Part shown: positions 1 to 49,422 of the stretch, one piece after another
Layout: each line of letters starts with the position of its first letter
How positions within the stretch are numbered: position 1 is the stretch's first letter
NCBI GenBank assembly: GCA_948144175.1
Contig: CANXME010002008.1
Span: 372,001 to 436,000, forward strand
Source: Closterium sp. NIES-65
Lineage: Eukaryota > Streptophyta > Zygnematophyceae > Desmidiales > Closteriaceae
Direction: 5' to 3'
Length of the DNA stretch: 64,000 nucleotides
Notes under the pieces: model-generated
The model's input: the letters and a program-made list of their open reading frames with translations, nothing else
Databases searched by the model: none
Told to the model about the DNA's origin: nothing
Position numbers and translations under genes: made by a program

Positions 1-1
1 G

Positions 2-998: not shown

Positions 999-1030
<32 letters not shown>

Positions 1031-1397: not shown

Positions 1398-1435
<38 letters not shown>

Positions 1436-2952: not shown

Positions 2953-3008
<56 letters not shown>

Positions 3009-7471: not shown

Positions 7472-8035
7472 GAGTGTTCAGGGATCATGCCGGTACGTCA
7501 CTTCTGCTGGGCATTGAGGCTTCCCATACAGCACTTCCAACCACCTGTCCTCTTCTGCTGGTCGCCTGCTTTGTGCGCTACTGTATACCGTATATTTCAT
7601 TATACAGTACCGATCACTCCCCCTCAGGGTTCGAAGGGAGCAGCAGACCCAGTAGTTCTCCCCAAGTGCTTGTGGTGGTAAATGCTCATTTTTCTTGCCT
7701 TGTATGGCATGGGGTGGGGTGGTATGGCATACATGTGCCCGCTCCACTGCATTAGCCCTTCCTGGATTTTGTATTGAATAGTGGCCGTGATTTGAGTGTA
7801 GCATCTGAAAGAATATCACCGTAGTCTCTGCTTGTGCTCTCCTTTCAGCCCTGCAAAAAAACTTGTGTATTGTCAAACATTTGTAACAACACAAACCCTA
7901 CTGGGTTACAGAGTAACAGCTAAACACAACCACCTGAGCGCAATCACGTATGCGCATGATATCAGTCCGGTGGTCATGCCTGTCATGCTCTCCTCCTGAG
8001 TGTCCTCATACTCTGCCTGCTGTCTGTCACTACTG
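7472..8035. other. Convergent intergenic region
   Basis: Lies between the 3' end of the forward long gene and the stop codon of the reverse deoxyhypusine synthase gene. The short ORFs here show no recognisable domain. It should hold the 3' untranslated region of deoxyhypusine synthase on the minus strand. I see nothing else in it. Confidence 0.4.
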
Positions 8036-11000
8036 CTACTCCTTTGCTTGCACCTCCTGCTTTGCTTGCTCCTGCTGCTGCACTCGCTCCTGTAAGTGGG
8101 GGGCAAACGTCTCGGCTACAAGCAGGGGGAAGGCAATGGTGGCATCGCAATACACCTGCAGGTGGCCAAGGGGAAAATGGAGGATGGAGGAGATGGGTGA
8201 AAGGGCAGAGGGGATGGGTGAAATCACATGGGAATTCTTAGTCAACTCAAAAGCAGAGGGAAGGTGATGGAGAAATCATTATGCACCTGCAGGCAGGTGA
8301 AATGAAGCCATCAGATTATAGGCTTTTACTGCAGAGATGGGCGAATGAGATAGGAAGAATGGCAGAGGCGATGCTTGACTTGGAATTACGACACTACATG
8401 TGCTCTCTCACTACCCCTACAGTGCCATCACATACGCCACCTGCTCCCCGTGCCTTCTCTCCCCACAGCATGTGTGTCTGCTCACACTCTCACACTTTCA
8501 CAAGGCGACATTGAGCCAGCTTAAAGGAGATTTCTCTCTCTCCCTCTCAACTTCACAGCGGTGGCATCTTCTCGGATCATCCCCCAGCTCACAGCCTCGT
8601 CCGGCCTGGCCCCCGAGTCGCTCCCATCAAACTCCGAATAGCCACATAATCCTCCCCGTTGCGCATCATCCAATAACCCTCCCAGTACCTTCTCTTCCCT
8701 CGCCACATGTGCTCGCTTCAGAGGACTCTCAAAAGGGACTCTTCTCACCTTAACTGCACTCGCATCTCCTCTGATCTTCCCCCAGCTCACAGCCTCGTCA
8801 GGCCTGGCCCCCGAGTCGCTGCCATCGAACTCGCTCGCCGTGTTGATGTAGACCGCGTAGTCCGCCCCGTTGCGCATCATGTTGGCGTTGCAGATGTGGT
8901 GCTTCGGCAGCCCCCCTCCCAGAATGATCACGCCCGTTCGCCGCGGGGTGGCGTTCACTGCCTCACCGTTCATCCGCCGGATGTCTGGGGGGAAGAGGGG
9001 AGGTGGGGAAGAGGGGGAAGAGAGGAGGAGGAGGAGGAGGGGAGCCGCAGGGGTGGAATTGTTGTTGGGGTGGGGGGAAACACTGTTCATTCGCTGCCAG
9101 GGGGTGTGTCAGGGGCAAGGGTGAGGGGGGGTGTCAAGTGGTGGGAGGTCAGCCCCGTTGCGCATCATGTTGGCGTTGCAGATGTGGTGCTTCGGCAGCC
9201 CCCCTCCCAGAATGATCACTCCCGTGTGCCGCGGGGTGGCGTTCACTGCCTCGCCGTTCATCCGCTGAATGTATGGGGGGAACCATGGGGCGTTCAGGGA
9301 AGAGGGTGAATAAGGAAGGTTGCGAGTAAGGAGGGTGCCTAAAGGGATGGTGAGGGGTTGAGTGAGGAGATGTGTCAGGGAAGGAGGTTGCCAGCCCCGT
9401 TGCGCATCATGTGGGCGTTGCACCAAGTCAACCTAGTCAACGCAGGTCAACGCACCTTGCACGAGGTCAATGAGGAGCCCGGGCGAGCGGAAGGAGTGGA
9501 AGTAGATCATGTCACCCAGGGACCCGTCCGTGATGGCTGGACAGAACACTGAGATGCCGTTCTGACATTACAGGGGGGGTGGTGGCGCACAAACGCAAAG
9601 ATGCACAGGATATGCTTTTCTGTTATTTTCCTATTTTTTAATCAAGGGTTGAACTGCTGACAGTGTGATGGAGAAGAGGCGCACCTAGAGGCGGGGGAAG
9701 GCTGACCTTATGGGCCCAGTAGAGAACCGACTCCTCATGGTTGATTTCCTTCCCCAGGCGGTCGATGAGCTTGGAGGGCGTCCACACCACGCCCTGCTTG
9801 AGACCGGCACGGCACACATGGGCAGGGGTAAGGTCAAGGACAGTGAACGTGCGGTTAGACTCACATGTCACACCGCTTATCCGACATAAAGAGTCCCCTG
9901 CTTGATGTGGTGTGTGTGAGCACATGAGGGACGAGAGGAGGAAGGGCAGTGAATGTGGAACGAACACAGATGATAACTGACTGAAAGGCAAACGGCAAGC
10001 AGCAATGCGGAGAAAAGGGTGCTCCCTTCGTTTTTCTCCCCCTTACCCCCTTAGCTCTCACCTCTTATTTCTCCCTCTCCCTCTCCTTTTCCCTCCCCCT
10101 CTTCTCCCCTCTTTCCTCTTCCCCCCCCCTGTCATTTTCCCCTCACCTCACCTGCGTCTGCTGCTCCTCGAGACAAGCATCCAGCACGGGCAGGACCCAG
10201 TCTTCAAAGAGGCAGTAGTTGTTGTTCAGTATGAGCAGGTTGACCGTCCTGCCAAGACACCACCTCCCACTCCCTCTCTCTCTCCCTCTCTCGCTCACCT
10301 CGCCCCCCCCTCACCTGCGTTTTCTGCTCCTCAAGACAAGCATCCAGCACGGGCAGGACCCAGTCCTCAAAGAGGCAGTAGTTGTTGTTCGGCACGAGCA
10401 GGTTGCCGATGCGGTTCAGCCCCTTGGCCCGCAGGTCCTTCCCCGCCAGGGAGAAGTCACCCAGGAGCGTGGGCGCCAGGCACTTTATCACGTCCTCTTC
10501 TATGCCCCCCGCTGTTGTCACTATCACATCCACCTGGATGGGTGCGTGGTTAGATGAGAGAGTGTAAGGGAAAAAACATAAATGAGGGGTTTGACTATGA
10601 GAGAAGCGCAGCAAGCAAGACCATGTAAAGGTACAACAAGAATAAGAGCATGACTGAGCGTAGGGGCCGTTACACGAACGGGAGTGGGGGATGGAGGAGG
10701 AAAGAAAGAAGGATTGATTGAAGGAAAGAAATGAGGGGATTAAACAGATGTGCTTACCAGTTTGTGCTTTGCCAGGAAGCAGAAGGTCTCTCGGAGCATT
10801 AGCCCGAGAGACAGGAGCTCATGAGGTTGGATTGGATGTGAAGCCCAGGAAGATCTTGCACCGCACCGACGACCGGAAGGCCGGGAGTCCCGGTATACTT
10901 GAGTGATACAACCCCCTGACTAACTCACACGAGGCAGTGACCCACCAGTTTGTGCTTTGCCAGGAAGCAGAACGTTTCTCGGAGCCCCGAGCTCATGAGG

Positions 11001-12090
11001 TTGGAGGTGAATCCCAAAAAGATCTTGCACCGCACCGACGACCGGAAGGCTGGGTCCCTCTCCTCTTCTGTATCGTCCGGCTTGGGTGGGTCGTCGCTCA
11101 GCCGCCATGCAAGCTGGGGAGGGGAGGGAAAGGAGGAAGGGGGTGAGTGATGGGTATGAGGTAAGAAGGGACGACCGGAAGGCTGGGTCCCGCTCCTCCT
11201 CCGTGTCGTCCGGCTTGGGTGGGTCGTCGCTCAGCCGCCATGCAAGCTGGGAAGGGGAGGGGGGGGGTTCAGGGTTCGGGTTTAAGGTTTCAGCTGAGGG
11301 TTGAAGGAAGGACGGAGAGGTAGCAGCCGGGTCCCTCTCCCCCTCCGTGTCGTCGGCCTTGGGCTCGCTCAGCCGCCACGCGAGCTGGGGAGGGGAGGGG
11401 GGTTTTGAGGGTTGAAGGTTTAGAGGTAGGGCGGAGAGGTAGCAAAGGCAGGAATCCTCCACTCCCCTATGACTTCGGTATTGGGCGGATGATCTTCGCG
11501 CAGCCGCCACGAGATTGGAAAAAAACGGATCCAGGGTTTTGGGGTTTGACATGGAAAAGTCAAGGTGGGGGAAAAGGGATGGGGAATGGGGGTTCAGGGA
11601 CTACGAAAGAACGGAATGACAGGAGCTTAACGCGGGACGAGCAGGCACAGGGACGGCCGTGGGGGAACATCAGACGCGAGGAACGAGATCGCACCATTCG
11701 GTTGACTTCATTAATCGCCTGTCCCAGACACGTGGCTTGGAACCCCGTCGTCACCATTCGCTTCATCAGCAGCGAGTAATCCACCGTCACCGATCCCGCC
11801 CCTCCTACTCCCACTGCTGCTGGTACGGCCCTACAAGCTTCCCCTCGCCCTGTTTGTTCTGCTGTAGCAGTCGTGACTGCATAGCTATCTCGAGTATCGC
11901 CATCCGCGCTACAGGGGGTTTCGATTCCGCTACCCTCTCGCGGCTGATCGCGGCGGGGAAATTCGCGCGCGGGGAGAACAGAAGCTTCGTGGAAGGTGTG
12001 CCCGCGGACACGTGGCGTGCTGTCGTCTACAGCCTCGGATCGCTTCAGAGCCGCGTCTAGCGCGCATTGCGGTGGCTGCTTTTGCTCCAT
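8036..12090 (-). CDS. DHS: Deoxyhypusine synthase, 7 exons
   Basis: Transfers the aminobutyl group of spermidine, with NAD, to one lysine of eIF5A, the first step of hypusine formation in the cytosol. Exons in coding order: 12090-11695, 11113-10946, 10533-10315, 9793-9707, 9561-9456, 8984-8749, 8155-8036 (stop TAG). Every junction is GT-AG and phases agree, giving 443 residues against about 370 in human. Landmarks: [18 protein letters not shown] (exon 3), [20 protein letters not shown] (exon 5), [10 protein letters not shown] with the expected active-site lysine at about residue 353, [15 protein letters not shown], and [10 protein letters not shown] near the end. The extra length is mainly a low-complexity stretch of about 65 residues in exon 1, between HTFHEAS and TTGFQAT. 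Introns carry partial copies of exons 2, 3 and 6. The start is the ATG that begins MEQKQPPQ, upstream of the conserved N-terminal block. Identification is firm; exact exon ends come from reading by eye. Confidence 0.92.
8551..8638 (-). pseudogene. Partial copy of DHS exon 6 (3' half)
   Basis: Downstream of the true exon 6, the minus strand repeats its 3' half ([18 protein letters not shown] and onward, with GMIRED instead of GKIRGD), followed again by a GTGAGA-like donor context. Changed residues and the lack of the catalytic half mark it as an intronic duplicate. Confidence 0.85.
9151..9270 (-). pseudogene. Partial copy of DHS exon 6 (5' half)
   Basis: Upstream of the true exon 6, the intron holds another copy of its 5' half, including a CAG acceptor and the [18 protein letters not shown] segment, then diverges. 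A shorter third fragment with the same [14 protein letters not shown] stretch lies at about 9395-9425. Splicing this copy in place of exon 6 would lose the DSGARPDE block. Confidence 0.85.
10150..10246 (-). pseudogene. Partial copy of DHS exon 3 (3' end with donor)
   Basis: The end of exon 3 ([20 protein letters not shown] and the following GTGAGG donor) is repeated once more downstream in the intron, at high identity. It is a duplicate exon end that keeps a working-looking splice donor. Confidence 0.85.
10756..11515 (-). repeat. Dispersed copies around DHS exon 2
   Basis: The true exon 2 is 11113-10946. A degraded copy of its 3' half lies at about 10756-10895. Copies of its 5' part (the [12 protein letters not shown] region with a CAG acceptor) lie at about 11165-11247 and 11320-11391, and a weaker one near 11480-11515. 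Each keeps the pyrimidine-rich tract and AG, so several acceptors compete here. Confidence 0.8.
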
Positions 12091-12410
12091 GGAGGAGTAA
12101 CGCGCTTATGGCGCTTATGGCGCCTAGGAGCCTTGTAAAAGATCGTGCTGATCTACCGGTTCTTCTGTGCCGATGGTCTAGCTGCGGGGTTGAGTTGTGA
12201 GTGTTTCAGAATGGAGCGCCAGCGCAAGTGAGGCGTACATTTTGCCAAGCAGTGAGCATTATGGACCAGTACAAGCAGACGCGTTTGTGGACGGTGTAGC
12301 ACGTTCGCCACACATTTCAATTTCCCTGCAAGTAAAAATAAATAAGTGAATCCATCAAACATGGCAAGTCCTAGGAAAACCAACACAGCACAACCAACCC
12401 ATTCTTGAAC
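12091..12410 (-). promoter_or_regulatory. Spacer between alpha-mannosidase stop and DHS start
   Basis: About 320 bp separate the mannosidase stop (TAA at 12411) from the DHS start codon, both on the minus strand. It must contain the mannosidase 3' end and the DHS promoter and leader. I see no clear TATA box or other motif that I would commit to. Confidence 0.35.
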
Positions 12411-15400: not shown

Positions 15401-18400
15401 CTCAGAAGTCGCATGCTCTTTTGCGCCATGCCATGTATAGTACACATATGCGCATACCATGAGGCGTTCATTGTTGCCATTGAATGCGATTTGCTCGTTG
15501 AGAATCTCCCCCACTCCCTTCATGTCCACTGTCACCAGTGCCCTGCATTCACACGCACAGAGGTGTGAAAGTACAAACAAATGTGAATTTCATTGCCTCA
15601 TTGAGAATCTCCCCCACTCCCTTCATGTCCACCGTCACCAGTGCCCTGCATTCACACGCACAGAGGTGTGAAAGTACAAACAAATGTGAATTTCATTGCC
15701 TCATTGAGAATCTCCCCCACTCCCTTCATGTCCACTGTCACCAGTGCCCTGCATTCACACGCACAGAGGTGTGAAAGTACAAACAAATGTGAATTTCATT
15801 GCCTCATTGAGAATCTCCCCCACTCCCTTCATGTCCACCGTCACCAGTGCCCTGCATTTGCACACGCAGAGGTTTGACATCACAGGTTTGGGTAAAATTC
15901 GTATGGAACATCATAGTGACTGAGTGTGCCCAGACATGTCAAGGTTCGTATTATACCCTTACAACAAGATTCTTCTTAGCATGTCAAGATTATCATTCTA
16001 AGATTCTTCTTAGGCTCATTGGTGCAGCATGGCCCAAGCTGAAACAACGCCTCTGGTACAGAGCACTCACCGGTGCAGCATGACTTCGAGCTGTCCGGCT
16101 GCCAGGCTGGCAGCACCGGCTGCTCGGTCCACCAGCAGTGACAGCTGTGACTCGCCATCCCCGATGAACGCGCCCACCGTCACCTGCAGGAGGGAGAGAG
16201 GAATGAGGAAGCAGGGAGGCTCCTTCAGGTTTCTCAAAATCGTCAATAAACGCCCCCAGCGTCACTTGGGGGAGGATAGGGAGCATGGATGCAGGGAAGC
16301 TTAGTTAAGGCGCATCAAACACCCTTATGAGTGCACCCACCATCACCCTTGGTTCAACTCAACTGGCTGATTGGACTAAGAATTGGTTGAACTGGATTGA
16401 CAGTAATGATTGGTTGAACTGGACTGACAGTAAGGATTGGTTGAACTGGACTGACAGTAAGGATTGGTTGAACTGGACTGACAGTAAGGATTGGTTGAAC
16501 TGGACTGACAGTAAGGATTGGTTGAACTGGACTGACAGTAAGGATTGGTTGAACTGGACTGACAGTAAGGATTGGTTGAACTGGACTGACAGTAAGGATT
16601 GGTTGAACTGGACTGACAGTAAGGATTGGTTGAACTGAACTGACAGTAAGGATTGGCTGGAGTGCACTGACCGGATAGAAATTGCCTGCGATGGGATCGG
16701 TGAGGGTAAGCTCCCAATCAGCGCGATGGTCTACGATCTGTGGTGGAGAGAGAGGCGCGATGGGATTGAGGGGGGAGAGGGCATGGGATTGAGGGGGGAG
16801 AGGGCATGGGATTGAGGGGGGAGAGGGCATGGGATTGAGGGGGGAGAGGGCATGGGATTGAGGGGGGAGAGGGCATGGGATTGAGGGGGGAGAGGGCATG
16901 GGATTGAGGGGGGAGAGGCGCAATGGGATTGAGGGGGGAGAGGGCATGGGATTGAGGGGGGAGAGGGCATGGGATTGAGGGGGGAGAGGGCATGGGATTG
17001 AGGGGGGAGAGGGCATGGGATTGAGGGGGGAGAGGGCATGGGATTGAGGGGGGAGAGGGCATGGGATTGAGGGGGGAGAGGGCATGGGATTGAGGGGGGA
17101 GAGGGCATGGGATTGAGGGGGGAGAGGGCATGGGATTGAGGGGGGAGAGGGCATGGGATTGAGGGGGGAGAGGGCATGGGATTGAGGGGGGTGACAGGGC
17201 AGGGAGGATGGTGTGGGGAGACAGGGAGTATGGAAAACGAAGGGAGGGTTGGGAGAACAAGAATCTGGAAAGAGAAGTGTGCGAAGGTGGGAAGGCAGAG
17301 GGGAGGGGACAATGGATGGGTGGAAATAAGAAACAGATAAGGTGGAAAGGGGAGCGAAAGAGCAATCAGGCAGCTCTCACCAAGCAGCAAACAGCATTCA
17401 CTCGTTTCACTTTAAGTACTGTTGGTTGTTGGTGATAGTGGCTGCACTGAGAATGCAAGTATTCGTTTTAAGCTGCTTGCCCCTGCTTATGAGCTCACCC
17501 GTTTGAGGTACCGCCTGCCATTAGAGTCAGTGAAAAATGTCTTGTTGCTGTTGATGGGGGCTGAAAAGCGAGTCACAACCTCGTGACCCTTGCTGTCTTC
17601 GGGGGTTGGCCCGATCTGTGGGGTGTGGTTGGGGAGGGAGGGAATGGAAATATGTTCTGAGTCCAATCAAAACACACAAAGCAGGTCACCACTTCGTGAC
17701 CCTTGCTATCGTAAGGGGTAGGCCGGATCTGTGGAGTGTGGTTTGGGAGCGAGAGAGTGTGGAGACACAATAGGGTATGAACAGCAGCACACAAGAAGGG
17801 AGTGATGTGGGGTGCAGGGAGATGCTTTAAAAGGAATGCTTGAGCAACTTTTCAAAACGCCTCAAAGGTGTTCGTTACAGGAGTGTTTTCAGCACTCCAT
17901 CATGCGTAAGCACTGAGAGCACAGACACTTGCACAGGCATGCAAAGCGCGACCAATAGGAATCTTCATCGAGCGAGCAAGGTGGTTTGACAACGAGCGTG
18001 GGTACCTTTCAGGTCAAAGAGCATGATTAGGTCTGGGAGGGAAGAGAAGGACACTTACCACATAGTGCAGTTCGGCATAGTCACAACCTGGGTACACCCG
18101 GAAGGTCTGCAAAGAAATGCATGCAGCAGTCGAGGGGTGGGGGGAAGGGGGAGGGCGGAAAGCGGGAGGCAGGGGAGAGTGGGAGCAGAAAAGTGAATGC
18201 AGAGAGAGCACTGGAGAAATAGGAAACGGAAGGAGCTGCAGAGGGGCGTACCTCTGAAATCCATGGGGCAACTTGTCGAGAGAACTCTTCCACGATTGGT
18301 CCACGTTGAACGCGGATGGACACCTGGACACGTCAGCATGGCCAAGAGAATGCATGAGGTTCCATGAGGATTGTGTTTGTGTAAGTGCACAAACAGAAGT

Positions 18401-38100: not shown

Positions 38101-41100
38101 AGAGGAAAAGGTCTTTCATCCTTCCCCCTGTTTGTCCACCCAAACCCCCTCCCTCCACCATCACAGGACAGGCGGTGGGGCAGGTGCCCCCAGTGCAGTC
38201 ATACGGGGCAGAGGACAGGACAGTGGAGGCGTATGGGCGTTCCCCCAACGAACCCCTCACCACCCACAACCTCCCTCACCACCCCCTCTTTACCACCCTC
38301 TCCCCTCCATCGCCCCCACCACATCAGGCGGTGGGGCAGGTGCGAACAGTGCAGTCGTACGTGGCAGAGGACAGGACAGTGGAGGCATATGGGCGGGCTT
38401 TAAGAGACACGTTCAAGCTGGGAGTCAAGGTGCGTTGATAGGTGCTTGTCCTTGCCTATCCGACCCTGGGTCTGGGTGTGCTATCTATATCCCCATGCAT
38501 TGGCAACGGAGGCTCAATCCTCACCACCATGTTCGCCATCACCCTTGGCAGCCTGGGGCTTGGCAGGTCAGGGGAGGGGAACCCACTACCACTCTCGTTT
38601 CCCTCCCTCTCCCTCTCCCGTGGCCTTCCTACCAGGGCGGATTAGCCAAGGGAGTGGGCCTAGGCGCAATCTACGGACTCATGTTCGCGTCCTTTGCGCT
38701 CATGTTCTGGTTCTCCGGCCTTCTCATCGCACAAGGCATCGGCAACGGAGGCTCAATCCTCACCACCATGTTCGCCATCGCCCTTGGCAGCCTGGGGCTC
38801 GGCCAAGCCCTCCCTAACGTCACAGCCTTTTCCAAGGGCTGTGTGGCAGCGTATAAGATCTTTGTGACTATAGCGAGACGGCCGGTGATTGGCGGGGAGG
38901 AGGAGGGGGGGAGCGGTGGGAAGGAGTTGGAGGCGGTGGAGGGGCGGGTGGAGTTTGAGAAGGTGTGCTTTGCATACCCGGCTCGGCCTGAAGTGCCGAT
39001 ATTTAAGGTGAGCTAGCTGCTTTTTGTCGACTGAAACACGGGTGCAGGGGCGGGTGGAGTTTGAAAGGGTGTGCTTTGCGTACCCGGCTTAACCAGAAGT
39101 GCCGATATTTAAGGTGAGCTAGCTGCTTTTTGTCGACTGAAACACGGGTGCAGGGGCGGGTGGAGTTTGAAAGGGTGTGCTTTGCGTACCCGGCTTAACC
39201 AGAAGTGCCGATATTTAAGGTGAGCTAGCTGCTGCTTTTCACTGAGTTTTGGGACTTCTCAACACACTCACCCGGCTTGGCCTGAAGTGTCGATATTTAA
39301 GGTGGGCAAGTGATACCGTTGCCATCGTTTCAGCTTAAGGATGCATGCCGTAGGCCTCCGCAGCCCACCTGTCCGTTACTGACAGCTCTTCCACCTTAAG
39401 GATGCCGTATTTAAGACTTTTGAGGCGCCTCAACAGTGAGCAAGTGATTGCATCAATCCCTCTCCACCAGCAAGCCAACTGGCATCATCTTTTGAGAATT
39501 CTCAAAACCGGAGAGATTTGTAGGCCAGCTATATTGGAGTGACTTTGAGAATTCTCAAAAGTCACTCCACCAGCAAGCCAACTGGCATCATCTTTTGGGA
39601 AATCCTAAACACGGTCGTTTTAATCCCCTCCCTTGACCATGCCGGCATTACAGTCACCCTGGTGGGCCCATGAGGCAGCAGCAAGTGAACCGCTCTCGCC
39701 CCAGTTCCCTACCACTCATCCTTCACCTCGCTTCACCTTCTCTCTCCTCCATTCACATTCCCACTTCCCTCCCCACACTCTCAGGACTTCTCCCTCTCGA
39801 TCCCTGTTGGCACCACGGTCGCCCTGGTCGGCCCATCAGGCAGCGGCAAGTCAACCGTCGTGGCGCTCATCCAGCGCTTCTACGACCCGACAGCTGGCAG
39901 CGTTTCATTGGACGGCACGGATCTGCGCCAGCTCAGCCTGACGTGGCTGCGCTCCCAGCTGGGGCTTGTCAGCCAGGAGCCGTCCCTGTTTGCTACCAGG
40001 TGAGGTGGGGTGAGGTGGAGTGCGGTGGAGTGAGGTGAGCTGATTGATGATGCAAGTGTGTGTGATGTATAGCACCCTTCACCATTCTCTCTCCCTTCTC
40101 TCCCTCTCTCTCCCCCTCCCCATCACACAGCATTCTGGAGAACATTCGGTACGGCAAGGAGGACGCGACACAGGAGGAGGTGGAGGAAGCAGCAAGGATC
40201 GCCAACGCGCATTCCTTTGTGACTGCGCTACCGCAAGGGTACAACACACAGGTGAGCAAGGGTACAACACACAGGTGAGCAAGGGTACAACACACAGGTG
40301 AGCAAGGGTACAACACACAGGTGAGCAAGGGTACAACACACAGGTGAGCAAGGGTACAACACACAGGTGAGCAAGGGTACAACACACAGGTGAGCAAGGG
40401 TACAACACACAGGTGAGCAAGGGTACAACACACAGGTGAGCAAGGGTACAACACACAGGTGAGCAAGGGTACAACACACAGGTGAGCAAGGGTACAACAC
40501 ACAGGTGAGCAAGGGTACAACACACAGGTGAGCAAGGGTACAACACACAGGTGAGCAAGGGTACAACACACAGGTGAGCCGGTTTGCATTGATGCAGGTT
40601 AGGGATGGAGGTGAGACGGTTTGCATTGATGCAGGTTAGGGATGGAGGTGAGACGGTTTGCATTGATGCAGCTTAGGGATGGAGGTGAGACGGTTTGCAT
40701 TGATGCAGGTTAGGGATGGATGCTGAACGGAGTTGATGTAAGAGGTGGAGGAACTCAGATTGCCACCGCGCATTGCCAATGCCATTGCTGTGAATGCGCG
40801 TGCAGGTGGGAGAGAGGGGCGTGCAGCTGGCAGGAGGGCAGAAGCAGCGCCAGAGCAGTCACGCAAGTACCCATCCCGTTATCCTTGTCTTTGCCCCCTT
40901 GCAAATCTGCAGGTGGGAGAGAGGGGCGTGTAGCTGTCAGGAGGGCAGAAGCAGCGGATTGTCATTGCTGTGACAGTGCTAATGCGTTGACCATCACACG
41001 CATCCAACACCCTCTCTTCCCTGCCCGTCCCCCATATCGATGTGCGTGCAGGTGGGAGAGAGGGGCGTGCAGCTGTCAGGAGGGCAGAAGCAGCGCATCG

Positions 41101-44100
41101 CCATCGCCAGAGCAGTCGTTCGCAACCCCCGCGTGCTGCTATTGGACGAGGCCACGTCAGCACTGGACAGCGAATCAGAGCGCGTGGTGCAGGCGGCTCT
41201 GGACGGTGGGCTGATGCGTGGCAGATCAACGGTTGTGATCGCACACCGGCTGTCCACGATCCGGAATGCAGACAAGATTGCTGTGGTGGCCGGGGGAAGG
41301 GTGGTGGAGGAGGGGACACACGAAGAGCTGATGGCGCATGGGGGGGCGGAGGAGTGGGGAGGGGGAGGGGAGGATGATGAGGGGAGGGGTGTGGTTAGTG
41401 CAAAGGAAGGTGCGAGGAAAGAGGGGGGCGTGTATGCTAACTTGGTTCGCCTGCAGATGGTAGCTGGGGAGGATCGCTACGTAAGCCTGAATGCTCTGGC
41501 CAATCAGGTTCCAGGATTGAAAGCAGCCGGCCGCCTTCGAATTGACGTGAACCAATCAGGATACGAGGAGGACGTGGGTAGGAAGATCTCGAGGGCGCTC
41601 TCAGCATCCTCCACGCCACGTGGGTTCAGAGATCCTGCTGCTGACGTGGGCCAATCAGGGAGCATAGAGAACGTGGGAAGTAAGCTCTCGAGGGCACTGA
41701 GTTCCCTGTCAGCAGCCTCCACTCCACGTGGCTTCAGAGAGCCTGCTGCTGACGTGGACCAATTAAGGAGCATAGAGAACGTGGGAAGGAAGATCACCAG
41801 GGCGCTTAGCTCCCTCTCAGGAGCCTCCACTCCACGTGGCTTCAGAGAGCCTGCTGCTGACGTGGACCAATCAGGGAGCATGGAGGACGTCGGAAGGAAG
41901 ATCTCCAGGGCGCTGAGCTCCCTGTCAGCAGCCTCCACTCCACGTGGCTTCAGAGAACCTGCTGCTGACGTGGACTTTGACTTGGATCTAATGGGATCTG
42001 ACGTGGAGGAGGAAGAGGAGGAGGGAGGAGAAGGGGGAGGAGGGAAGCGAGTGTGGGGGGAACTGAGGAAGGTTCTACCAGCTCCCCTGAGGGCGTTGCT
42101 CCCTGGCGGCAAAAAGAGAGGAGATGACAAGGGGGAAAACAGTCAGGAGGGCAAGGAGAGTGGAGAGGAGGAGGAGGGCGCGAAGGGAGAAGGAGAAGGA
42201 GAAGGGGAAGTAGAAGGAGAAGGAGTGGGGGGAAAGAAGGCGTCGTGGTGGCGACTAGCGCGTATGAGTGCTCCTGAGTGGCCCTTCACTGCTCTGGGCG
42301 CGGCTGGTGCTGTCATGGCAGGCGCGTTCAACCCCGTGTATGCGCTTCTGCTCATTGATGTGAGTGCAACTGTGGTTTGGGTGGGATTGTAACGTGAGTG
42401 TGACACTGCTGTAACGTGAGACACTGCTTTGGGTGCAGCTGGTGCTGTGATGGCAGGGGCGTTCAAGCCGGTGTATGCGCTTCTGCTCATTGATGTGAGT
42501 GGGTCTGTAGTGTGGGTTGGTGTGTGTTTGTAATGTGAGTGTGTCAGTGCCCTGGGCGCCACTGGTGAGTGTGAGTGTGATGGCAGGGGCGTTCAACCCC
42601 GTGTATGCTCTGCTGCTCATTGATGTGAGTGGGTCTCTTGAGTCGGCTCAAAATTCACCTGTTGAGTTCTCTAATTTTGAGACGTCTCAGAAGTCTATTG
42701 AGTCGGCTCAAAATTCACCTGTTGAGTGATTGCTGGTGAATTCACCTGTTGAGTGATTGCTGGTGAATTCACCTCTAAAAGTCTTCTCCGCTGGTGCTGT
42801 GATTGCTGCGGCGTTCAACCCCGTGTATGCTCTGCCGTTCATTGATGTGAGTGGGATTTTATTGTGAGTGCATTGTGATGTGAGCGTGATTGCAACGTGA
42901 GTGGGATTGCAGTGGAGTAATCACCTTGCCTTGTCTTTCCCTTCCCGCTCTTCTGAACCACTCTCTAGGTCATATCAGCTCTGTAAGACCCACAACATAG
43001 ACTATGACACGGACGATGGGGACTTACACTTCACTGCTCCTTCCTATCACATTCTGCCATCTCCACACCCCCCCCCCCATCTCGACCACTCCTCTTCCCT
43101 CCTTCAGCTGGTTGCGGCTCTCTACAACCCTGTTACCGATGAGATGAAGCGGGCCATAGTCTTCACTACTCCACCCACATTGTGCCATCCCCCTCCCATC
43201 CCCAACCGCACTGCAGGTGATAGCGGCTCTCTACAACCCTGTTACCGATGAGATGAAGCGGGCCATAGTCTTCACTACTCCACCCACATTGTGCCATCCC
43301 CCTCCCATCCCCAACCGCACTGCAGGTGATAGCGGCTCTCTACAACCCTGATACCGATGAGATGAAGCGGGCCATAGTCTTCACTACTCCACCCACATTG
43401 TGCCATCCCCCTCCCATCCCCAACCGCACTGCAGGTGATAGCGGCTCTCTACAACCCTGATACCGATGAGATGAAGCGGGCCATAGTCTTCACTACTCCA
43501 CCCACATTGTGCCATCCCCCTCCCATCCCCAACCGCACTGCAGGTGATAGCGGCTCTCTACAACCCTGATACCGATGAGATGAAGCGGGAGGTCAACAAG
43601 TGGGCCATAGTCTTCACGGCTCTCGGCGTGCTGGCGCTGCCAGTGCACTCGGTGCAGAACTACGGCTTTGGCGTGTCGGGAGAGGCGCTGGTGAAGCGAG
43701 TCAGAGAGAAGATGCTTGCAGGTGCGTGGGGGAACATTGCCAGGTTGGGAAAGGTACGGATTTGGTCTTCACGGCTCCAGGTGTGCTGGCCTTGCCAGTA
43801 CACTCAGTGCATAAATGCGGTTTTGGGGTGGCAGGGGAAGCACTGGTGAAGCGAGTCAGAGAGAAAATGCTGGCAGGTGCGTGGGTGGTGGAAGGGTGTC
43901 AACATCTTAAGCACCTGTCCTGGAAGGGTCTGCTTTGGCGTGCTGGCCCTGCCAGTACACTCAGTGTAGAACTACGGCTTTGGTGTGTTGGGGGAAGCAC
44001 TGGTGTAGCGAGTCAGAGAATATTCTCAAAGGTATGTAACATAGGAACATCACAACAGGAGGGGGAGGGGGAGGGGATTCACGGCTCTGAGTGTGCTGGC

Positions 44101-47100
44101 GCTGCCAGTGCACTCGGTGCAGAACTACGGCTTTGGCGTGTCGGGAGAAGCACTAGTGAAGCGAGTCAGAGAGAAGATGCTTGCAGGTGCGTGGGGGAAC
44201 AAAGCCAGGTTGGGATCGGTAGGGCTTTGGTCTTCCCTGCTCTGGGCATGCCCTGCCAGTGGCACTCCTTGCAGGATTGTAGCTCTGGGGTGGTGGGGGA
44301 AGCTGCGGTGAAGTGAGTCAGAGAGAAGACGAGAAGACGTTAACACCAGTGGAGTCATCACCAGTGGAGAAGACGAGAAGACGTTAACACCAGTGGAGTC
44401 ATCACCAGTGGAGAAGACGAGAAGACGTTAACACCAGTGGAGTCATCACCAGTGGAGAAGACGAGAAGACGTTAACACCAGTGGAGTCATCACCAGTGGA
44501 GAAGACGAGAAGACGTTAACACCAGTGGAGTCATCACCAGTGGAGAAGACGAGAAGACGTTAACACCAGTGGAGTCATCACCAGTGGAGAAGACGAGAAG
44601 ACGTTAACTCGTCTTGCCACCGACCCCACTCCCCCTTCTCGCCCTCCTTCCCCCCTTCCTCTCCCCCCCCCCCCCCCCCCCCCATGCAGCCATCCTAGGC
44701 AATGATCGATCGGGTTCGATAGGGACGCCAACGCCAGCGGAGCTATCGCATCTCACCTCGCCAACCATGGCACTCCCTCCTTTCCTCCCTTCCTCCTCTC
44801 CTCCCTCATCCCTCCCCCCACAGCCATCCTAGGCAACGAGGTGGCATGGTTCGATCGGGACGCCAACGCCAGCGGCGCCATCGCCTCTCGTCTCGCCACA
44901 GACGCCACGCTAGTCAAAGCGGCCGTGGCGGACCGCATTGCCCTTGCCACGCAGAACCTGTCGGTGATTGTCATCGCGTTTGTCATCGGGTTCGTGGTGG
45001 AGTGGCGGGTTGCGCTCGTGGTGATTGCAACGTTCCCGCTGCTCATATTTGCGGCACTCATGGAGGTGAGCTCAGGAGAGAGAGAGGATAGCAGAACCTG
45101 TCGGTGATCGTCATCGCGTTTGTGATCGGGTTCGTGGTAGAGTGGCGGGTCGCTCTCGTGGTCATCGCGACTTTCCCTCTACTGATTTTCGCTGCGCTCA
45201 TGGAGGTAAGGGGGTGGGAAGGCGGATATGCGCGCCCTGCAGCCATGCAGAACCTGTCGGTGATTGTCATCGCGTTTGTGATCGGGTTCGTGGTGGAGTG
45301 GCGGGTCGCTCTCGTGGTCATCGCGACTTTCCCTCTACTGATATTCGCTGCGCTCATGGAGGTAAGGGGGTGGGAAGGCGGATATGCGCGCCCTGCAGCC
45401 ATGCAGAACCTGTCGGTGATTGTCATCGCGTTTGTGATCAGGTTCGTGGTGGAGTGGCGGGTCGCTCTCGTGGTCATCGCGACTTTCCCTCAACTGATTT
45501 TCGCTGCGCTCATGGAGGTAAGGGGGTGGGAAGGCGGATATGCGCGCCCTGCAGCCATGCAGAACCTGTCGGTGATTGTCATCGCGTTTGTGATCAGGTT
45601 CGTGGTGGAGTGGCGGGTCGCTCTCGTGGTCATCGCGACTTTCCCTCTACTGATATTCGCTGCGCTCATGGAGGTAAGGGGGTGGGAAGGCGGATATGCG
45701 CGCCCTGCAGCCATGCAGAACCTGTCGGTGATTGTCATCGCGTTTGTGATCAGGTTCGTGGTGGAGTGGCGGGTCGCTCTCGTGGTCATCGCGACTTTCC
45801 CTCTACTGATTTTCGCTGCGCTCATGGAGGTAAGGGGGTGGGAAGGCGGATATGCGCGCCCTGCAGCCACGCAGAACTTGTTGGTGAGTGTCATCGCGTT
45901 TGTGATCGGGTTCGTGGTGGAGTGGCGCGTGGCACTGGTCGTCATCGCCACGTTCCCTCTGCTGATATTTGCAGCGCTTATGGAGGTGAGGAGGGGGAGT
46001 GGGATAGCGTAGCTCTCGCCACGCAGAACCTGCATGCTCTGCAGTCACTGACAGTCATGCCCTGCAGTCACTGACAGGCATGCTCTGCAGTCACTGACAG
46101 GCATGCTCTGCAGTCACTGACAGGCATGCTCTGCAGTCACTGACAGGCATGCTCTGCAGTCACTGACAGTCTTTTGAGTGTGCAGCCATGCATGAGTCGA
46201 ACCCCTTCCTCTCCACCTCTCATTCCTCCTCTCCTCCTATCACCCCTCTTCTACCCCTCCTCTTCTCGCCCCTCCCATCCACATCGCCTCCTTTCCCCCT
46301 TCCCAGCAACAATTCCTGGCAGGGTTTGCAGGCAACCAGAGCTGCAGGCAACCAGAGCTCATCCCACGCGGTCGCCAACATCCGCACTGTAGCACCAACA
46401 ACCTCCATCTCATCTCTACCCCCCTCTTCCCCTCCCCTCCTCTCCCCCCTCGCAGCAACAATTCCTGGCAGGGTTTGCGGGCAACCAGAACTCATCGCAT
46501 GCGGGCGCCACCACCATAGCAGCAGAGGCGGTAGCCAACATCCGCACTGTAGCAGCATTCAACGCACAGGACAAAATCCTCGCACTGTTCACTGCCAGGC
46601 TGGCAGGACCCCTCAGGCGCTCATTCCTTCGCGGGCAGGTTGGTGGGGCAGGTTTCGGCCTGAGCCAATTTTTCATGTATGGGTCGTATGCGTTAGCACT
46701 ATGGTACGGGTCGACTTTAATTCCCAATACAGCGTCATATGGTGATGTGCTTAAGTCATTTATGGTGCTTATAATGACGTCGATGGCTATAGCTGAGAGC
46801 ATTACTCTCGCTCCGGATATTGCGAAAGGAAGCGTGGCCGTTCGATCGGTCTTCAAGACCACAGATCGGACGCCCAAGATTCTTTCTGACGATCCGACGG
46901 CTGAGGTGGTTTCGACTGTTCGCGGAGAGATTGAGTTTCGATCGGTTTCTTTCGCCTACCCGGCCCGCCCGGAAACGCCCGTGCTGCAAGACCTTTCTCT
47001 CCGGGCAGCGCCGGGGAAGATGCTGGCGCTGGTGGGCCCGTCGGGCAGCGGAAAAAGTTCCGTGGTGGCTCTGGTGGAGCGGTTCTACGATCCGACGGCT

Positions 47101-49422
47101 GGGAGTGTGCGGGTGGATGGGGAGGACATCCGGACCGTTCATCTGAAGACTCTGCGATCTTTCATCGGGCTGGTCAGCCAAGAACCCGCCCTCTTTGCTA
47201 CCACGTAAGCAATGTGGTGTTTTTGAGAAATCTCGAAGCACTCTGCATTGTGGTCTCTTTCTTTTTCACCCCTCCATGGCCCCATGCCTCCATGCTCCCA
47301 CGTCTCCACGTCCCCCCAGCATCCACGGCAACATCCTGTACGGCCAGCCAGGCGCCAGCGAGGCAGAGGTGGTGGAAGCAGCGCGTGGTTGAGGCGCCTC
47401 ACTGATACCCAGCGCGTAGTTGAGGCGCCTCACTGATACCCAGCGCGTGGTTGAGGCGCCTCACTGATACCCCGTGTCACTTTAGAGTCGACTCAAAAGT
47501 GACCTCGTTACCTTCCATGTCCCCGTGTCTCCATCTTCTCCTCCCAGCATCCGTGGCAACATCTTGTACGGTCAGCCAGGCGCCAGCGAGGCAGAGGTGG
47601 TGGAATCAGCTTGAGGAGGCATGTACTTGAGGCGGGTCTCGAATAGGCTTCATGCCTCCCGATCCTTGCATGACCCCATGTCTCCACGCCTTGTTGTGCT
47701 CCTTGCAGCATCCGCGGCAACATCCTGTACGGCCAGCCAGGCGCCAGCGAGGCCGAGGTGGTGGAAGCAGCACAAGCAGCCAACGTGCATGGGTTCATCA
47801 GCAGTCTGCCCGAGGGATACGACACGCAGGTGAAGGGGGGGGGGGAGGGAGGCGTGGGTGGGATGCTGATAGGTGCTCGTACCTGGTGTAATGGAAGAAG
47901 CCAAGACAGCCAACGTGCATGGGTTCATCAGTGGGCTGCCCGAGGGATACGACACGCAGGTGAGAAAGGGGGGGCGGTGGGGAGCTTGTTGGATGTGGCC
48001 TTACCTGGTGAGGTGGAAGCAGCACGAGCAGCCAACGTGCATGGGTTCATCAGCAGTCTGCCCGAGGGATAGGGGGTTGCTCGCTTGGTGATTTGCTCTT
48101 CATCTGTACGCGTGCCCGGTGGCGTGGTGTTAGGAGCCGAGCAGTCGGCTCAGTTTGGGTTGGGTTCGGTTGGGTTAGGTTTGTTTGGGTTGGATTGGGT
48201 TCCTCAGCGCCCGTTCCCTTCCCCCATATCAATGTGCGTGCAGGTGGGAGAGAGGGGCGTGCAGCTGTCAGGAGGGCAGAAGCAGCGCATTGCCATCGCC
48301 AGAGCCATCCTGAAAGACCCGGCAGTGCTGCTGCTGGATGAGGTACGGTGGTGGTGGGTGGTGATGTGGGTGGTGATCGGTGGTGATGGGTGGAGTGCTC
48401 ATAGCAGTCTTAGTGAGCTGAGCACACTCTCTGCCATCGCCAGAGCCATCCTGAAAGGCGGTGCCATCTCTGCCAGAGCCATCCTGAAAGACCCAGTGGT
48501 GCTGCTGCTGGTTGAGGTGCAGTGTCTATCTCATAAGTGTCCCCCCTCACTCACCTGCTCACTCCCCTGTCACTCACTCACTCCCCAATTTCTCGCTCAC
48601 TCCTTACTCATTTACTCACTCACACGTCCTTCGTTGCCTCAAATTTCTCCATCCTGCATGGCTCTCCCCTGCAGGCCACGTCAGCATTGGATGCGGAGTC
48701 TGAGGTGGCGGTCCAGTCAGCGCTGAACCGCATCATGATTGGCCGCACCACGATTGTCGTCGCGCACCGCCTCTCCACCATCTGCCACGCGGACTGCATT
48801 GCTGTGCTGCAGGTGAGTGGAGGGGGGGATGGACAAGGGAGAGGGAGTGTGTCTGTTGGGTTGAGTAACAGAGTGATGGGATGTGTGGAGGGTTGAGTGC
48901 CTGAGTGATTCTCGCCTCTCCACCATCTGCCATGCGGACTGCATTGCTGTGCTGCAGGTGAGGGAAATGCTGGGGTTGGGGATGGGGGGCGGGTGGCATG
49001 GTTGTGGAGGGCTGAGTAGCAGAGTAGCGAGGTGTGCATTGCGCCGCCTCTCCTCTCCACCATCTGCCGTGCCGACAGCATTGCTGTGCTGCAGGTGAAG
49101 GAGGAGGGAATTGGGAGGAGGGGTGTTGGCCTGCATAGCAGAGTGATGGGGTGTGTGGTGGGTTGAGTGACTGTGTGGTGGGGGGAGGGTGTGGGAGATG
49201 GGAAGGGCTTGCTGCTGTAGCTCCATGGCTCTCATTTCCCACCGACGTGGTAATGCTTATATACTGTATCTACATTGTATCATGTCTCTTAACTAAGTGC
49301 TTATTGTGTTGTAGGGTGGGAGGCTGGTGGAGCAGGGCACTCACATGGAGCTCATAAGTGTACCCAATGGTGCTTATGCCACTTTAGTGCAGTTGCAACA
49401 AAGGAATAAGGTCGCCATGTGA
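35157..49422 (+). CDS. ABCB: ABCB-type full ABC transporter (MDR/P-glycoprotein family), 16 exons
   Basis: ATP-driven membrane transporter with TMD1-NBD1-TMD2-NBD2 order; plant members move auxin, lipids or xenobiotics, but the substrate cannot be read here. Exons: 35157-35606, 36358-36412, 37018-37193, 37787-37987, 38328-38429, 38636-39007, 39785-39999, 40131-40251, 41052-42359, 43544-43721, 44824-45065, 46456-47204, 47709-47829, 48244-48342, 48675-48812, 49315-49422. All junctions are GT-AG and in phase; about 1,544 residues against 1,200-1,300 usual. NBD1: Walker [10 protein letters not shown] (about 468), LSGGQ (about 572), Walker B VLLLDE (about 592). NBD2: GPSGSGKSS (about 1334), LSGGQ (about 1438), VLLLDE (about 1458). 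Q-loops [18 protein letters not shown] and AHRLS H-loops are present, so both sites look competent. Excess length is an acidic N terminus and a long NBD1-TMD2 linker with repeats. The start ATG at 35157 is the first in frame. Confidence 0.95.
35704..35790 (+). pseudogene. Partial copy of ABCB exon 1 (3' end)
   Basis: Repeats the end of exon 1 ([18 protein letters not shown], against [18 protein letters not shown]) together with its GTGAGA donor context, about 100 bp downstream of the true donor. Confidence 0.9.
35812..36030. repeat. 14-bp minisatellite
   Basis: About 15 units of GAGGAGAGGGGCAT in ABCB intron 1, directly after the exon 1 copy. Translated Pro/Leu/Ser peptides on the other strand are artefacts. 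Confidence 0.95.
36571..36957 (+). repeat. Three upstream copies of ABCB exon 3 start
   Basis: Copies at about 36571-36655, 36731-36805 and 36889-36956 repeat the exon 3 acceptor and the segment [20 protein letters not shown]. Each has its own pyrimidine tract and CAG. The fourth copy (37018-37193) continues to the end of the exon and is taken as the real exon. Confidence 0.92.
37220..37392 (+). repeat. Two downstream copies of ABCB exon 3 middle part
   Basis: Copies of the [20 protein letters not shown] coding segment at about 37225-37275 (decayed) and 37322-37390. A 34-bp near-palindrome (37285-37318) separates the two copies. Confidence 0.88.
37285..37318. repeat. 34-bp near-palindrome between exon copies
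   Basis: Thirty-two of 34 positions are symmetric, with GAGACGAGTTTT and AAAACTCGTCTC as arms and AGTCGACT at the centre. It separates two partial copies of ABCB exon 3. Confidence 0.9.
37393..37720. repeat. 10-bp minisatellite GCGTGTGGCA
   Basis: About 32 units in ABCB intron 3, with CCGTGTGGCA and CCATGTGGCA variants. The same 10-mer occurs in the following exon 4 (about 37849-37858, in the SVWQ codons), so the array may have seeded from exon sequence. Confidence 0.96.
38023..38250 (+). repeat. Copies of ABCB exon 4 end and exon 5 start
   Basis: At about 38023-38095 the sequence joins an exon 4-like end (GKIEEQ) directly to an exon 5-like run ([11 protein letters not shown]), and at about 38165-38240 another exon 5 copy reads [20 protein letters not shown]. 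The true exon 5 is 38328-38429. Confidence 0.85.
38502..38566 (+). pseudogene. Partial copy of ABCB exon 6
   Basis: Repeats the [20 protein letters not shown] segment found in true exon 6 (38636-39007), placed about 240 bp upstream of its counterpart and without flanking acceptor. Confidence 0.85.
39040..39305 (+). repeat. Copies of ABCB exon 6 end with shared stop codon
   Basis: Two copies (about 39044-39114 and 39157-39222) repeat the coding segment [14 protein letters not shown] and the GTGAGC donor, both with the same TAA in place of a sense codon after CCGGCT. A third, shorter trace lies at 39268-39305. The shared stop indicates that one decayed copy was itself duplicated. Confidence 0.9.
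39416..39565. repeat. Cluster of three palindromes in ABCB intron 6
   Basis: TTGAGGCGCCTCAA (within 39418-39433), TTTTGAGAATTCTCAAAA (39490-39507, perfect) and a 27-bp near-palindrome at 39539-39565 with GTGACTTT and AAAGTCAC arms around GAGAATTCTC. Confidence 0.9.
39640..39700 (+). pseudogene. Decayed copy of ABCB exon 7 Walker A region
   Basis: Resembles the [17 protein letters not shown] coding region of exon 7, but with a TGA and another stop inside the Walker A codons. It lies 145 bp upstream of the true exon (39785-39999). Confidence 0.8.
40252..40573 (+). repeat. 23-bp array repeating the exon 8 end and donor
   Basis: Fourteen identical 23-bp units follow ABCB exon 8. Each unit is the intron start GTGAGCAAG followed by the last exon bases GGTACAACACACAG. 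Including the original, this makes 15 consecutive CAG|GTGAGC donors. Use of any later donor would add sequence out of frame or with shifts, since 23 is not a multiple of three. Confidence 0.97.
40579..40725. repeat. 37-bp tandem array
   Basis: Four units of 37 bp (GGTTTGCATTGATGCAGGTT and onward, ending GGTGAGAC) directly after the 23-bp donor array in ABCB intron 8. Each unit again ends in a donor-like GGTGAG. Confidence 0.93.
40802..40965 (+). repeat. Two copies of ABCB exon 9 start
   Basis: About 40806-40855 and 40913-40965 repeat the CAG acceptor plus GERGVQLxGGQKQR codons. The second has a stop codon (GTGTAG) in place of the VQ codons. The true exon 9 starts at 41052. Confidence 0.88.
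41545..41965 (+). repeat. Four-copy coding repeat in the ABCB linker
   Basis: Within exon 9, after NBD1, about four units of 36 residues follow each other, each with a [16 protein letters not shown] core and [17 protein letters not shown] and RKIT resemble basophilic kinase sites. The NBD1-TMD2 linker of ABCB transporters is known to be phosphorylated, so a regulatory role is plausible but inferred. Confidence 0.92.
42423..42850 (+). repeat. Copies of ABCB exon 9 end
   Basis: Three copies (about 42423-42495, 42560-42625 and 42788-42848) repeat the [18 protein letters not shown] segment and its GTGAGT donor, with substitutions ([13 protein letters not shown] in the last). Palindrome-related sequence lies between the second and third copies (42635-42700). 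Confidence 0.9.
43108..43543 (+). repeat. 109-bp tandem copies of ABCB exon 10 start
   Basis: Four units at about 43108, 43217, 43326 and 43435 repeat the acceptor and [12 protein letters not shown] codons, then jump directly to the AIVFT codons, skipping the EVNKW codons present only in the fifth, true exon (43544-43721). Each keeps a pyrimidine tract and a CTGCAG acceptor. Confidence 0.93.
43775..44320 (+). repeat. Copies of ABCB exon 10 end
   Basis: Four decayed copies (about 43780-43880, 43930-44030, 44085-44190 and 44225-44320) of the [20 protein letters not shown] to KMLAG segment, several with the GTGCGTGG donor. The second copy has a stop codon and ends in a GAGAATATTCTC palindrome (44016-44027). 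Confidence 0.88.
44321..44612. repeat. 44-bp tandem array
   Basis: About six units of 44 bp (AGAAGACGTTAACACCAGTG and onward) in ABCB intron 10, nearly identical. It starts within the codons following the last exon 10 copy (GAGAAGA). Confidence 0.95.
44686..44760 (+). pseudogene. Decayed copy of ABCB exon 11 start
   Basis: Resembles the exon 11 start ([20 protein letters not shown]) but with a deletion, so it reads out of frame. It follows a poly-C tract (44666-44684) and a CAG. The true exon begins at 44824. Confidence 0.85.
45095..45985 (+). repeat. Six extra in-frame copies of ABCB exon 11 3' half
   Basis: Cassettes at 45095-45205, 45251-45361, 45407-45517, 45563-45673, 45719-45829 and 45875-45985, at 156-bp spacing. 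Each is 111 nt (37 codons), preceded by AG and followed by GTAAGG or GTGAGG, and starts and ends in phase 0, as exon 11 ends. Each encodes the hydrophobic [17 protein letters not shown] and [19 protein letters not shown] segments, that is, membrane helices of TMD2. None carries a stop codon. The intact transporter needs none of them. Confidence 0.96.
46060..46165. repeat. 23-bp repeat before ABCB exon 12
   Basis: About five units of GCATGCTCTGCAGTCACTGA plus CAG in ABCB intron 11, after the exon 11 cassettes. Confidence 0.85.
46306..46400 (+). pseudogene. Decayed copy of ABCB exon 12 start
   Basis: Repeats [11 protein letters not shown] and, after an internal deletion, VANIRTVAP codons. It has its own CAG acceptor. 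The true exon 12 begins at 46456. Confidence 0.85.
47321..47615 (+). repeat. Two copies of ABCB exon 13 start
   Basis: About 47321-47390 and 47549-47614 repeat [19 protein letters not shown] or [19 protein letters not shown], each ending in a stop codon soon after (TGG TTG AGG context and GCT TGA). Between them lie three units with TTGAGGCGCCTCA and a 28-bp near-palindrome (47476-47503). The true exon 13 is 47709-47829. Confidence 0.9.
47390..47503. repeat. Palindrome cluster between ABCB exon 13 copies
   Basis: Three units with TTGAGGCGCCTCA at about 30-bp spacing, then a 28-bp near-palindrome (47476-47503) with GTCACTTT and AAAGTGAC arms around GAGTCGACTC. Confidence 0.9.
47893..48072 (+). 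repeat. Two copies of ABCB exon 13 end
   Basis: Repeats of the [18 protein letters not shown] segment with GTGAGA donor (about 47893-47960) and of [14 protein letters not shown] ending in TAG (about 48014-48072). Confidence 0.9.
48430..48518 (+). repeat. Two copies of ABCB exon 14 end
   Basis: Fragments encoding AIARAILKG and [15 protein letters not shown]. In the second, the Walker B aspartate is replaced by Val, so inclusion would inactivate NBD2. Confidence 0.85.
48905..49094 (+). repeat. Two copies of ABCB exon 15 end
   Basis: Copies at about 48911-48958 and 49048-49094 of the [15 protein letters not shown] segment plus GTGAGG or GTGAAG donor. The second has a small insertion. Confidence 0.88.

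Follow-up and report, generated by a model that had tools for sequence, protein, structure and literature searches.

A 64,000-nucleotide stretch of the genome of Closterium sp. NIES-65, a freshwater green alga (the window; positions 372001–436000 of a contig here called C1710) holds three genes, encoding deoxyhypusine synthase (DHS), a lysosomal-type alpha-mannosidase, and an ABCB transporter, whose introns contain partial copies of the immediately neighboring exons together with the splice site at the copied exon edge. We lean towards a reading in which stretches of about 20–240 bases spanning exon-intron borders have been duplicated in tandem, likely through unequal exchange that involves diverged versions of the same gene, and in which the copies are predicted to be skipped. 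The observations on which this reading is based are the copies themselves, their polarity, the retained GT and AG dinucleotides, an excess of duplications at the borders, copy numbers that differ between C1710 and a second segmental copy of the locus (C1953), a third-codon-position bias in the differences between copies and exons, and intron flanks that often do not match.

The 51 exons and 48 introns of the three genes were placed by homology and GT-AG borders and compared by blastn on both strands (E<=1e-3), giving 79 sense matches, no antisense matches, and none between genes. All but three of the matches (76/79) involve the immediately adjacent exon, and the exceptions are put down to the two homologous nucleotide-binding (ATPase) halves of ABCB. 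Chance similarity was rejected as a source, as Markov-shuffled introns yielded no matches in five replicates and antisense matches are absent. The polarity of the 76 copies is uniform, with 48 lying downstream of their exon and repeating its end (donor side), 28 lying upstream and repeating its start (acceptor side), and none having the wrong polarity, such that the duplications are direct, adjacent, and order-preserving as in tandem border duplication. The exon edge is reached by 61 copies, and the border and splice site are included in the duplicated unit: GT follows in 38 of the 39 donor-side copies that reach the exon 3' end (14 of the 39 being units of a single 23-bp exon-8 array), and AG precedes in 21 of the 22 acceptor-side copies that reach the exon 5' start. 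None of the 76 is a whole exon with both splice sites, as whole-exon tandem duplication would give. Identity between copy and exon ranges from 73 to 100%, and the extremes of multiplication are the ABCB exon-8 array, with fifteen 23-bp units of exon end plus GTGA that are 100% identical, and the exon-11 array, with six 156-bp units of exon end. When the copy-site offsets are taken modulo 3, no class is clearly preferred (12:11:16 and 6:8:8, counting the exon-8 array), as expected if the copies are untranslated.

These counts bear out the initial annotation in its report of border copies with splice sites in all three genes, always local and in direct orientation, and its estimate of at least 20 events holds because the copies occupy 31 exon sides. 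Its statement that nearly every sizeable intron is affected is true of ABCB (14/15 introns) and DHS (5/6) but not of alpha-mannosidase (6/27), with 25 of the 48 introns bearing copies overall, and the description of introns as built from copies is too strong, as copies make up only 4,533 of 26,270 intron bases. Median intron length is 528 where copies are present and 232 where they are absent.

Local duplications in the three genes are concentrated at exon-intron borders. After merging, 24 cross a border, four are purely intronic, and one is purely exonic, and 24/28 compares with 8.8 expected if units of similar length, with lengths entered by hand, are placed at random (P 1.4e-9). Including a further eleven short intronic arrays and two short border arrays gives 26/41 versus 10.0 expected (P 1.5e-8), and among pairs at least 90% identical it is 13/17 (P 2e-4). 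The excess is an upper estimate, because the merging of neighbors, low-complexity filtering, and the visibility of conserved exons all favor the border class; with this detectability bias partly removed by the 90% subset, the earlier proposal of a process that duplicates segments across borders is supported. The border share also argues against a rival explanation, that ordinary random tandem duplication occurs within one haplotype, with exonic events purged, border events neutral, and copies decaying neutrally, so that copies of exons merely stay recognizable. We regard this as a serious possibility if an unlikely one, as local direct duplications are common in this genome (18 of 20 sampled regions, described below), the sole array that BLAST detected inside an exon of these genes, in ABCB exon 9, keeps its frame open, and most of the larger indels between C1710 and C1953 in window positions 40719–51075 are tandem units.

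The divergence of the copies is also difficult to reconcile with random duplication and neutral decay. Excluding the exon-8 array, 62 copies differ from their exons at codon positions 1, 2, and 3 in the ratio 77:67:273, with 245 synonymous and 128 non-synonymous codons and nine in-frame stops. Taking one copy per exon side (n=30), the counts are 35:39:131, a third-position ratio of 3.54 (bootstrap 2.6–4.8), whereas simulation of neutral copies alongside a synonymously evolving exon gave mean ratios of 1.69–1.98 and a maximum of 2.71 in 900 runs (three settings of 300 runs each). A faster synonymous clock in exons was considered as a source of the bias and is not supported, as C1710 and C1953 differ at 4/981 third positions and 38/5,250 intron positions, numbers that are small and, for the introns, partly alignment noise. 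Similarity furthermore often ends near the splice site. Among 47 copies with flanks long enough to compare, seven flanks surpass every one of 40 random pairs in similarity and 22 are among the best few, whereas in the remaining 25 similarity is lost or unproven beyond the splice site and the flanks are no better than several random pairs; pyrimidine tracts weaken this test. We read the third-position bias, the unmatched flanks, and the lack of faster exon third positions as suggesting that copies often derive from another version of the gene.

A plausible route can be outlined. Duplication across a border would be tolerated, as it leaves an intact exon with its two splice sites in every case, and under exon definition a partial copy lacking its partner splice site is predicted to be ignored. 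Once an exon and a first copy exist, they could pair out of register, and arrays would then grow or shrink. If exon and copy often come from different haplotypes or paralogues, this would explain both the third-position differences and the unmatched intron flanks; if exons are where diverged haplotypes have kept their similarity, this would explain the preference for borders and the coding-like divergence.

Several observations weigh against exchange between diverged versions at borders. The border excess may be inflated, as a conserved exon partner keeps an old pair detectable and the subset at 90% identity corrects for this only partly, and 15 of the 76 copies fall short of the border by blastn. 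Loss of flank similarity is not universal, given the 22 of 47 flanks among the best few, and the test is a weak one for pyrimidine tracts. The proposed source of diverged copies is not seen, as no diverged second exon 11 (homeologue) was found in this genome, where only two candidates passed a first look. Variation among copies in multi-copy sets is itself biased to third positions (37:26:68, with fixed differences 4:3:21), so a single founding split does not account for the whole signal. Diagnostic sites that tie a copy to the other haplotype are few, and they are mixed: at the two in exon 3, one window copy agrees throughout with the C1953 exon, another agrees throughout with the window exon, and a third is divided between them, and the window copy of exon 1 matches the window exon at two of three such sites. 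Finally, several ABC genes have few or no copies, and loci L003, L008, and L009 have no local duplication at E 1e-6.

Comparison with the second segmental copy shows that the arrays change in size. A search of the genome (874,075,685 bases) with exon 11 identified two loci, C1710 and C1953, each 100% identical over the exon (the same two candidates), and the exon-11 array has six copies on C1710 and four on C1953. Window positions 40719–51075 differ from the corresponding C1953 region (L035) by 49 mismatches in about 10 kb, part of them alignment noise next to gaps, and by 13 indels. The larger indels are tandem units of 88 (2x44), 312 (2x156), 69 (3x23), and 31 bases, together with an 81-base indel judged by eye to be an imperfect tandem duplication; there is also an in-frame 12-base indel in the coding region. 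Across the locus, C1953 has one more exon-5 copy, one fewer exon-6 copy (two versus three), and 46 bases less of the exon-8 array, and further array changes are of 356 and 267 bases (89-bp array), 79, 54 twice (27-bp), 207 (23-bp), and 220 (17-bp), such that the changed arrays include periods of 44, 23, 31, 89, 79, 27, and 17 bp. A 178-base change in the 103-bp exon-23 array does not correspond, as aligned, to an integral number of units, and non-tandem indels occur too, for example of 442, 85, and 680 bases near 33 kb. The two copies are unevenly diverged: ABCB exon 1 is 88.4% identical (44 differences) and exons 2–8 are 98.9–100%, while window positions of about 33000–36000 are diverged with large indels relative to C1953 (L036) and the sequence to their left is 97.8% identical. 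This mosaic suggests exchange between diverged haplotypes.

The same comparison bears on whether the copies arose as an assembly artefact of long noisy reads. The NIES-65 assembly is of 876 Mb from haploid-phase samples (PMC10407611) and, according to that paper, was built from PacBio Sequel data with Canu and Arrow. Arrays are hard to assemble, and exact copy numbers and part of the C1710/C1953 differences may therefore be off. However, the same copies are present on a second contig that differs by the mismatches noted above, the copies differ from one another in sequence, and predicted proteins of strains NIES-54, Naga37s-1, and Yama58-4 show exon copies as well. An error in a single contig is thus not the explanation, and we rejected assembly error generally, giving it practically no credence.

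A different type of repeat is found at some of the duplications. A 20-bp palindrome, CTTTTGAG-N4-CTCAAAAG, has 25 matches in the window with up to three mismatches versus 0.25 expected (only two with an N6 centre), and there are 13 in six of the 20 sampled regions. Family members are near-perfect with a variable, often self-complementary centre, and account for 9 of 15 perfect palindromes of at least 16 nt in 264 kb. The sites include window positions 3209, 4511, 5441, 8716, 13245–13887, 15227–15408, 39417–39561, 42635–42714, and 47480, and others in L015, L016, L025, L026, and L031; the exact palindrome also occurs in one viral-contig record. Among 31 palindromes with up to two mismatches, 8 of which belong to one array and 3 to another, direct repeats flank 24, versus 90 of 600 random positions (14/31 and 51/600 for tight flanking). 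The order copy-palindrome-copy with little or no gap is seen at window positions 2432–2642 and 4457–4587, and in L015, L026, and L031 (two exon-copy sites in the latter), and a palindrome also lies between the copies at a third duplication within window positions 1–7050, at 5362–5552. These patterns are what one would expect if the element drives duplication, with insertion duplicating some 20–190 flanking bases in the manner of a very long target-site duplication. We consider this improbable, as most exon-copy junctions lack the palindrome (by our own reading, five of the 25 copy-bearing introns have it) and two arrays supply 11 of the 31 palindromes. The flanking repeats, of about 20 to more than 190 bp, lack the fixed-length target-site duplication that accompanies terminal inverted repeats in DNA transposons and miniature inverted-repeat transposable elements. 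The palindrome explains only some exon copies. A broader proposal for Closterium nuclear genomes would combine exon-anchored unequal exchange between diverged haplotypes with help from a mobile form of the palindrome, duplicating tens to hundreds of flanking bases at many sites, in an engine of intron growth that seeds partial exons with live splice sites faster than they decay. We regard this as doubtful; if true, exon definition must filter decoys in many genes.

It is also conceivable that the copies are in use, as alternative exons or as regulated decoy splice sites under selection. Splice sites are kept in 59 of the 61 copies that reach the border, divergence is coding-like, and the exon-11 array is open in frame over 306 codons. 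Nonetheless, none of the 76 copies is complete, nine in-frame stops interrupt the 62 copies, array size varies between the segmental copies, and the NIES-64 protein uses none of them, so we view this as very improbable. That protein (P0241, unnamed, Closterium sp. NIES-64) is 100% identical to the single-copy ABCB model over 1544 residues, and its annotation skips every copy. Other annotations do not. The deposited NIES-65 ABCB protein (P0242) contains translated copies of the exon 9 start, exon 9 end, and exon 10 start that are readable in the window, the Naga37s-1 protein (P0244) repeats exon-3 heads, the NIES-54 protein (P0243) has an exon-9 end copy, and the Yama58-4 protein (P0252) has pieces like exons 9, 11, and 13. 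The expectation that gene predictors would be misled is thus borne out. Gene prediction in PMC10407611 used transcriptome data and PASA.

The phenomenon was initially proposed to be genome-wide. We took 20 evenly spaced 10-kb regions on six contigs, and 18 contain local direct duplications, with 137 direct and 6 inverted pairs. One sampled region (L010) is satellite, and the sampled regions are largely shared repeats: the sequence at window positions 58850–64000, perhaps a retroelement, is an abundant repeat that recurs at 72–92% identity in many of them. Among other ABC loci, with exon ends judged from tblastn, L031 has copies at five borders, including a 55-base exon end with GTGGGT repeated unchanged, and L032 and L002 have one possible border copy each. 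L033 has a single 57-bp pair, and L004 and its twin L005 have arrays whose relation to exons is not assigned. With ABC loci ranging from copies at five borders to none, border duplication extends beyond the window but unevenly, and the genome-wide proposal is only partly supported.

The three rebuilt models have GT-AG at all introns and unbroken frames of 443, 1559, and 1544 codons (Table 1). The top identities of the DHS product, 75–84%, are to Closterium proteins P0127–P0135, and the first 570 residues of the alpha-mannosidase match the jack bean and lysosomal enzymes. Mannosidase intron 7 includes an array of about 170 copies of a 16-bp unit (2.7 kb, 24504–27220), ABCB exon 9 contains in-frame 108-bp (36-residue) repeats at 41543–41975, and window positions 1–7050 on the forward strand form a long, coding-like stretch rich in tandem repeats, whose periods are in many cases multiples of three. 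ATPase exons from the two halves of a single ABC gene are 85–93% identical in DNA sequence in the window (41024–41151 and 48216–48343, where the intron end before the exon is included) and at two other ABC loci (L031:3540-3843 and 7532-7835; L031:4103-4314 and 8575-8786; L032:2671-2884 and 5584-5797), a pattern that resembles recent conversion within a gene from one exon to another.

Table 1. Genes and exon copies in the window, in window coordinates.
Feature	Position	Strand	Basis
DHS gene; 7 exons, intact 443 aa	8036..12090	-	model, homologues, PDB matches of one exon stretch
Alpha-mannosidase gene, lysosomal type; 28 exons, intact 1559 aa	12411..31006	-	model and homology
ABCB transporter gene; 16 exons, intact 1544 aa	35157..49422	+	model and P0241 identity
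DHS exon 2 start, two acceptor-type copies (11384-11326, 11246-11170), AG kept	11170..11384	-	blastn and splice-site check
DHS exon 2 end, donor-type copy, GT kept	10758..10885	-	blastn and splice-site check
DHS exon 3 end, donor-type copy, GT kept	10152..10242	-	blastn and splice-site check
DHS exon 6 start, acceptor-type copy, AG lost	9148..9272	-	blastn and splice-site check
DHS exon 6 end, donor-type copy, GT lost	8551..8634	-	blastn and splice-site check
Mannosidase exon 4 start, acceptor-type copy	29872..29941	-	blastn and splice-site check
Mannosidase exon 7 end, three donor-side copies, one 2 nt short of edge	27227..27542	-	blastn and splice-site check
Mannosidase exon 8 start, acceptor-type copy	23690..23721	-	blastn and splice-site check
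Mannosidase exon 15 end, donor-type copy	19520..19652	-	blastn and splice-site check
31-bp array overlapping end of mannosidase exon 16 (19309-19259) and extending into intron 16; unit is exon end plus donor	19040..19278	-	
Mannosidase exon 20 start, acceptor-type copy	17678..17728	-	blastn and splice-site check
Mannosidase exon 23 start, three acceptor-type copies (103-bp unit)	15584..15851	-	
ABCB exon 1 end, donor-side copy, alignment 4 nt short of edge	35695..35764	+	
ABCB exon 3 start, three acceptor-type copies	36570..36954	+	
ABCB exon 3, two internal copies downstream of exon, palindrome between (37284-37319)	37233..37394	+	
ABCB exon 5 start, two copies (three on C1953)	38050..38239	+	
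ABCB exon 6, internal copy upstream of exon, without splice site	38497..38564	+	
ABCB exon 6 end, three donor-type copies (two on C1953)	39041..39301	+	
ABCB exon 7, internal copy upstream of exon, without splice site	39644..39692	+	
ABCB exon 8 end plus GTGA, 23-bp array of 15 units, starting in exon 8 (ends 40251) and extending into intron 8; 46 bases fewer on C1953	40233..40579	+	
ABCB exon 9 start, two acceptor-type copies	40806..40968	+	blastn and splice-site check
ABCB exon 9 end, three donor-type copies; palindromes 42635-42714 between last two	42422..42846	+	
ABCB exon 10 start, four copies (109-bp unit), three reaching exon 5' end with AG	43114..43480	+	
ABCB exon 10 end, four donor-side copies, two at edge	43765..44329	+	blastn and splice-site check
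ABCB exon 11 start, acceptor-type copy	44690..44763	+	blastn and splice-site check
ABCB exon 11 end, six donor-type copies (156-bp unit); four on C1953	45091..45985	+	
ABCB exon 12 start, acceptor-type copy	46307..46397	+	blastn and splice-site check
ABCB exon 13 start, two acceptor-type copies; palindrome 47480-47499 and 31-bp array between them	47320..47610	+	
ABCB exon 13 end, two donor-side copies, one at edge	47892..48071	+	blastn and splice-site check
ABCB exon 14 end, two donor-side copies, one at edge	48432..48516	+	blastn and splice-site check
ABCB exon 15 end, two donor-type copies	48913..49094	+	blastn and splice-site check

The arrangement resembles several known systems in part. 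Tandem exon duplication yields repeated or mutually exclusive exons and is likewise local, direct, and in order, but the Closterium copies are never whole exons and the NIES-64 protein lacks them. Minisatellite or variable-number tandem repeat arrays gain and lose units, as do the near-identical copies of this locus (by 88, 312, 69, 31, 106, 46, 356, 267, and 79 bases), although the Closterium units hold an exon end and splice site, and many copies are biased to third-position differences from the exon. Introners multiply intron content genome-wide, whereas exon-intron sharing between different genes is absent here (0/79 matches in three genes); intron-to-intron comparison across genes was confined to the self-BLAST of the window. 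In Haematococcus, a short hairpin repeat has reportedly proliferated through organelle DNA, and the Closterium palindrome is similarly short and dispersed in the genome, but is in presumed nuclear gene-bearing contigs and often between direct repeats. New introns are known to arise by way of single duplications across a border, but we know of no other genome with border duplications at most introns of a gene and numbers that differ between sister copies of a locus. In the potato RdRp gene, as described in PMC4974935, one tandem duplication across an intron-exon border made one new intron and added exonic sequence. The Closterium duplications are like it in crossing the border and carrying the polypyrimidine tract and 3' splice site, but number dozens within existing introns, on both donor and acceptor sides, and the NIES-64 protein corresponds to the single-copy model. 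The open-access literature searched, including passages of PMC10407611, PMC4974935, and PMC11096116, does not describe exon-border copies in Closterium.

Published Closterium proteins include false exons as a consequence of these copies, and the palindrome at some junctions is a separate lead on how such duplications may arise. The locus is a natural system in which to study how the spliceosome passes over dozens of near-identical decoy sites, and bears on how introns grow without transposons and on where the raw material of new exons and introns comes from among close algal relatives of land plants.

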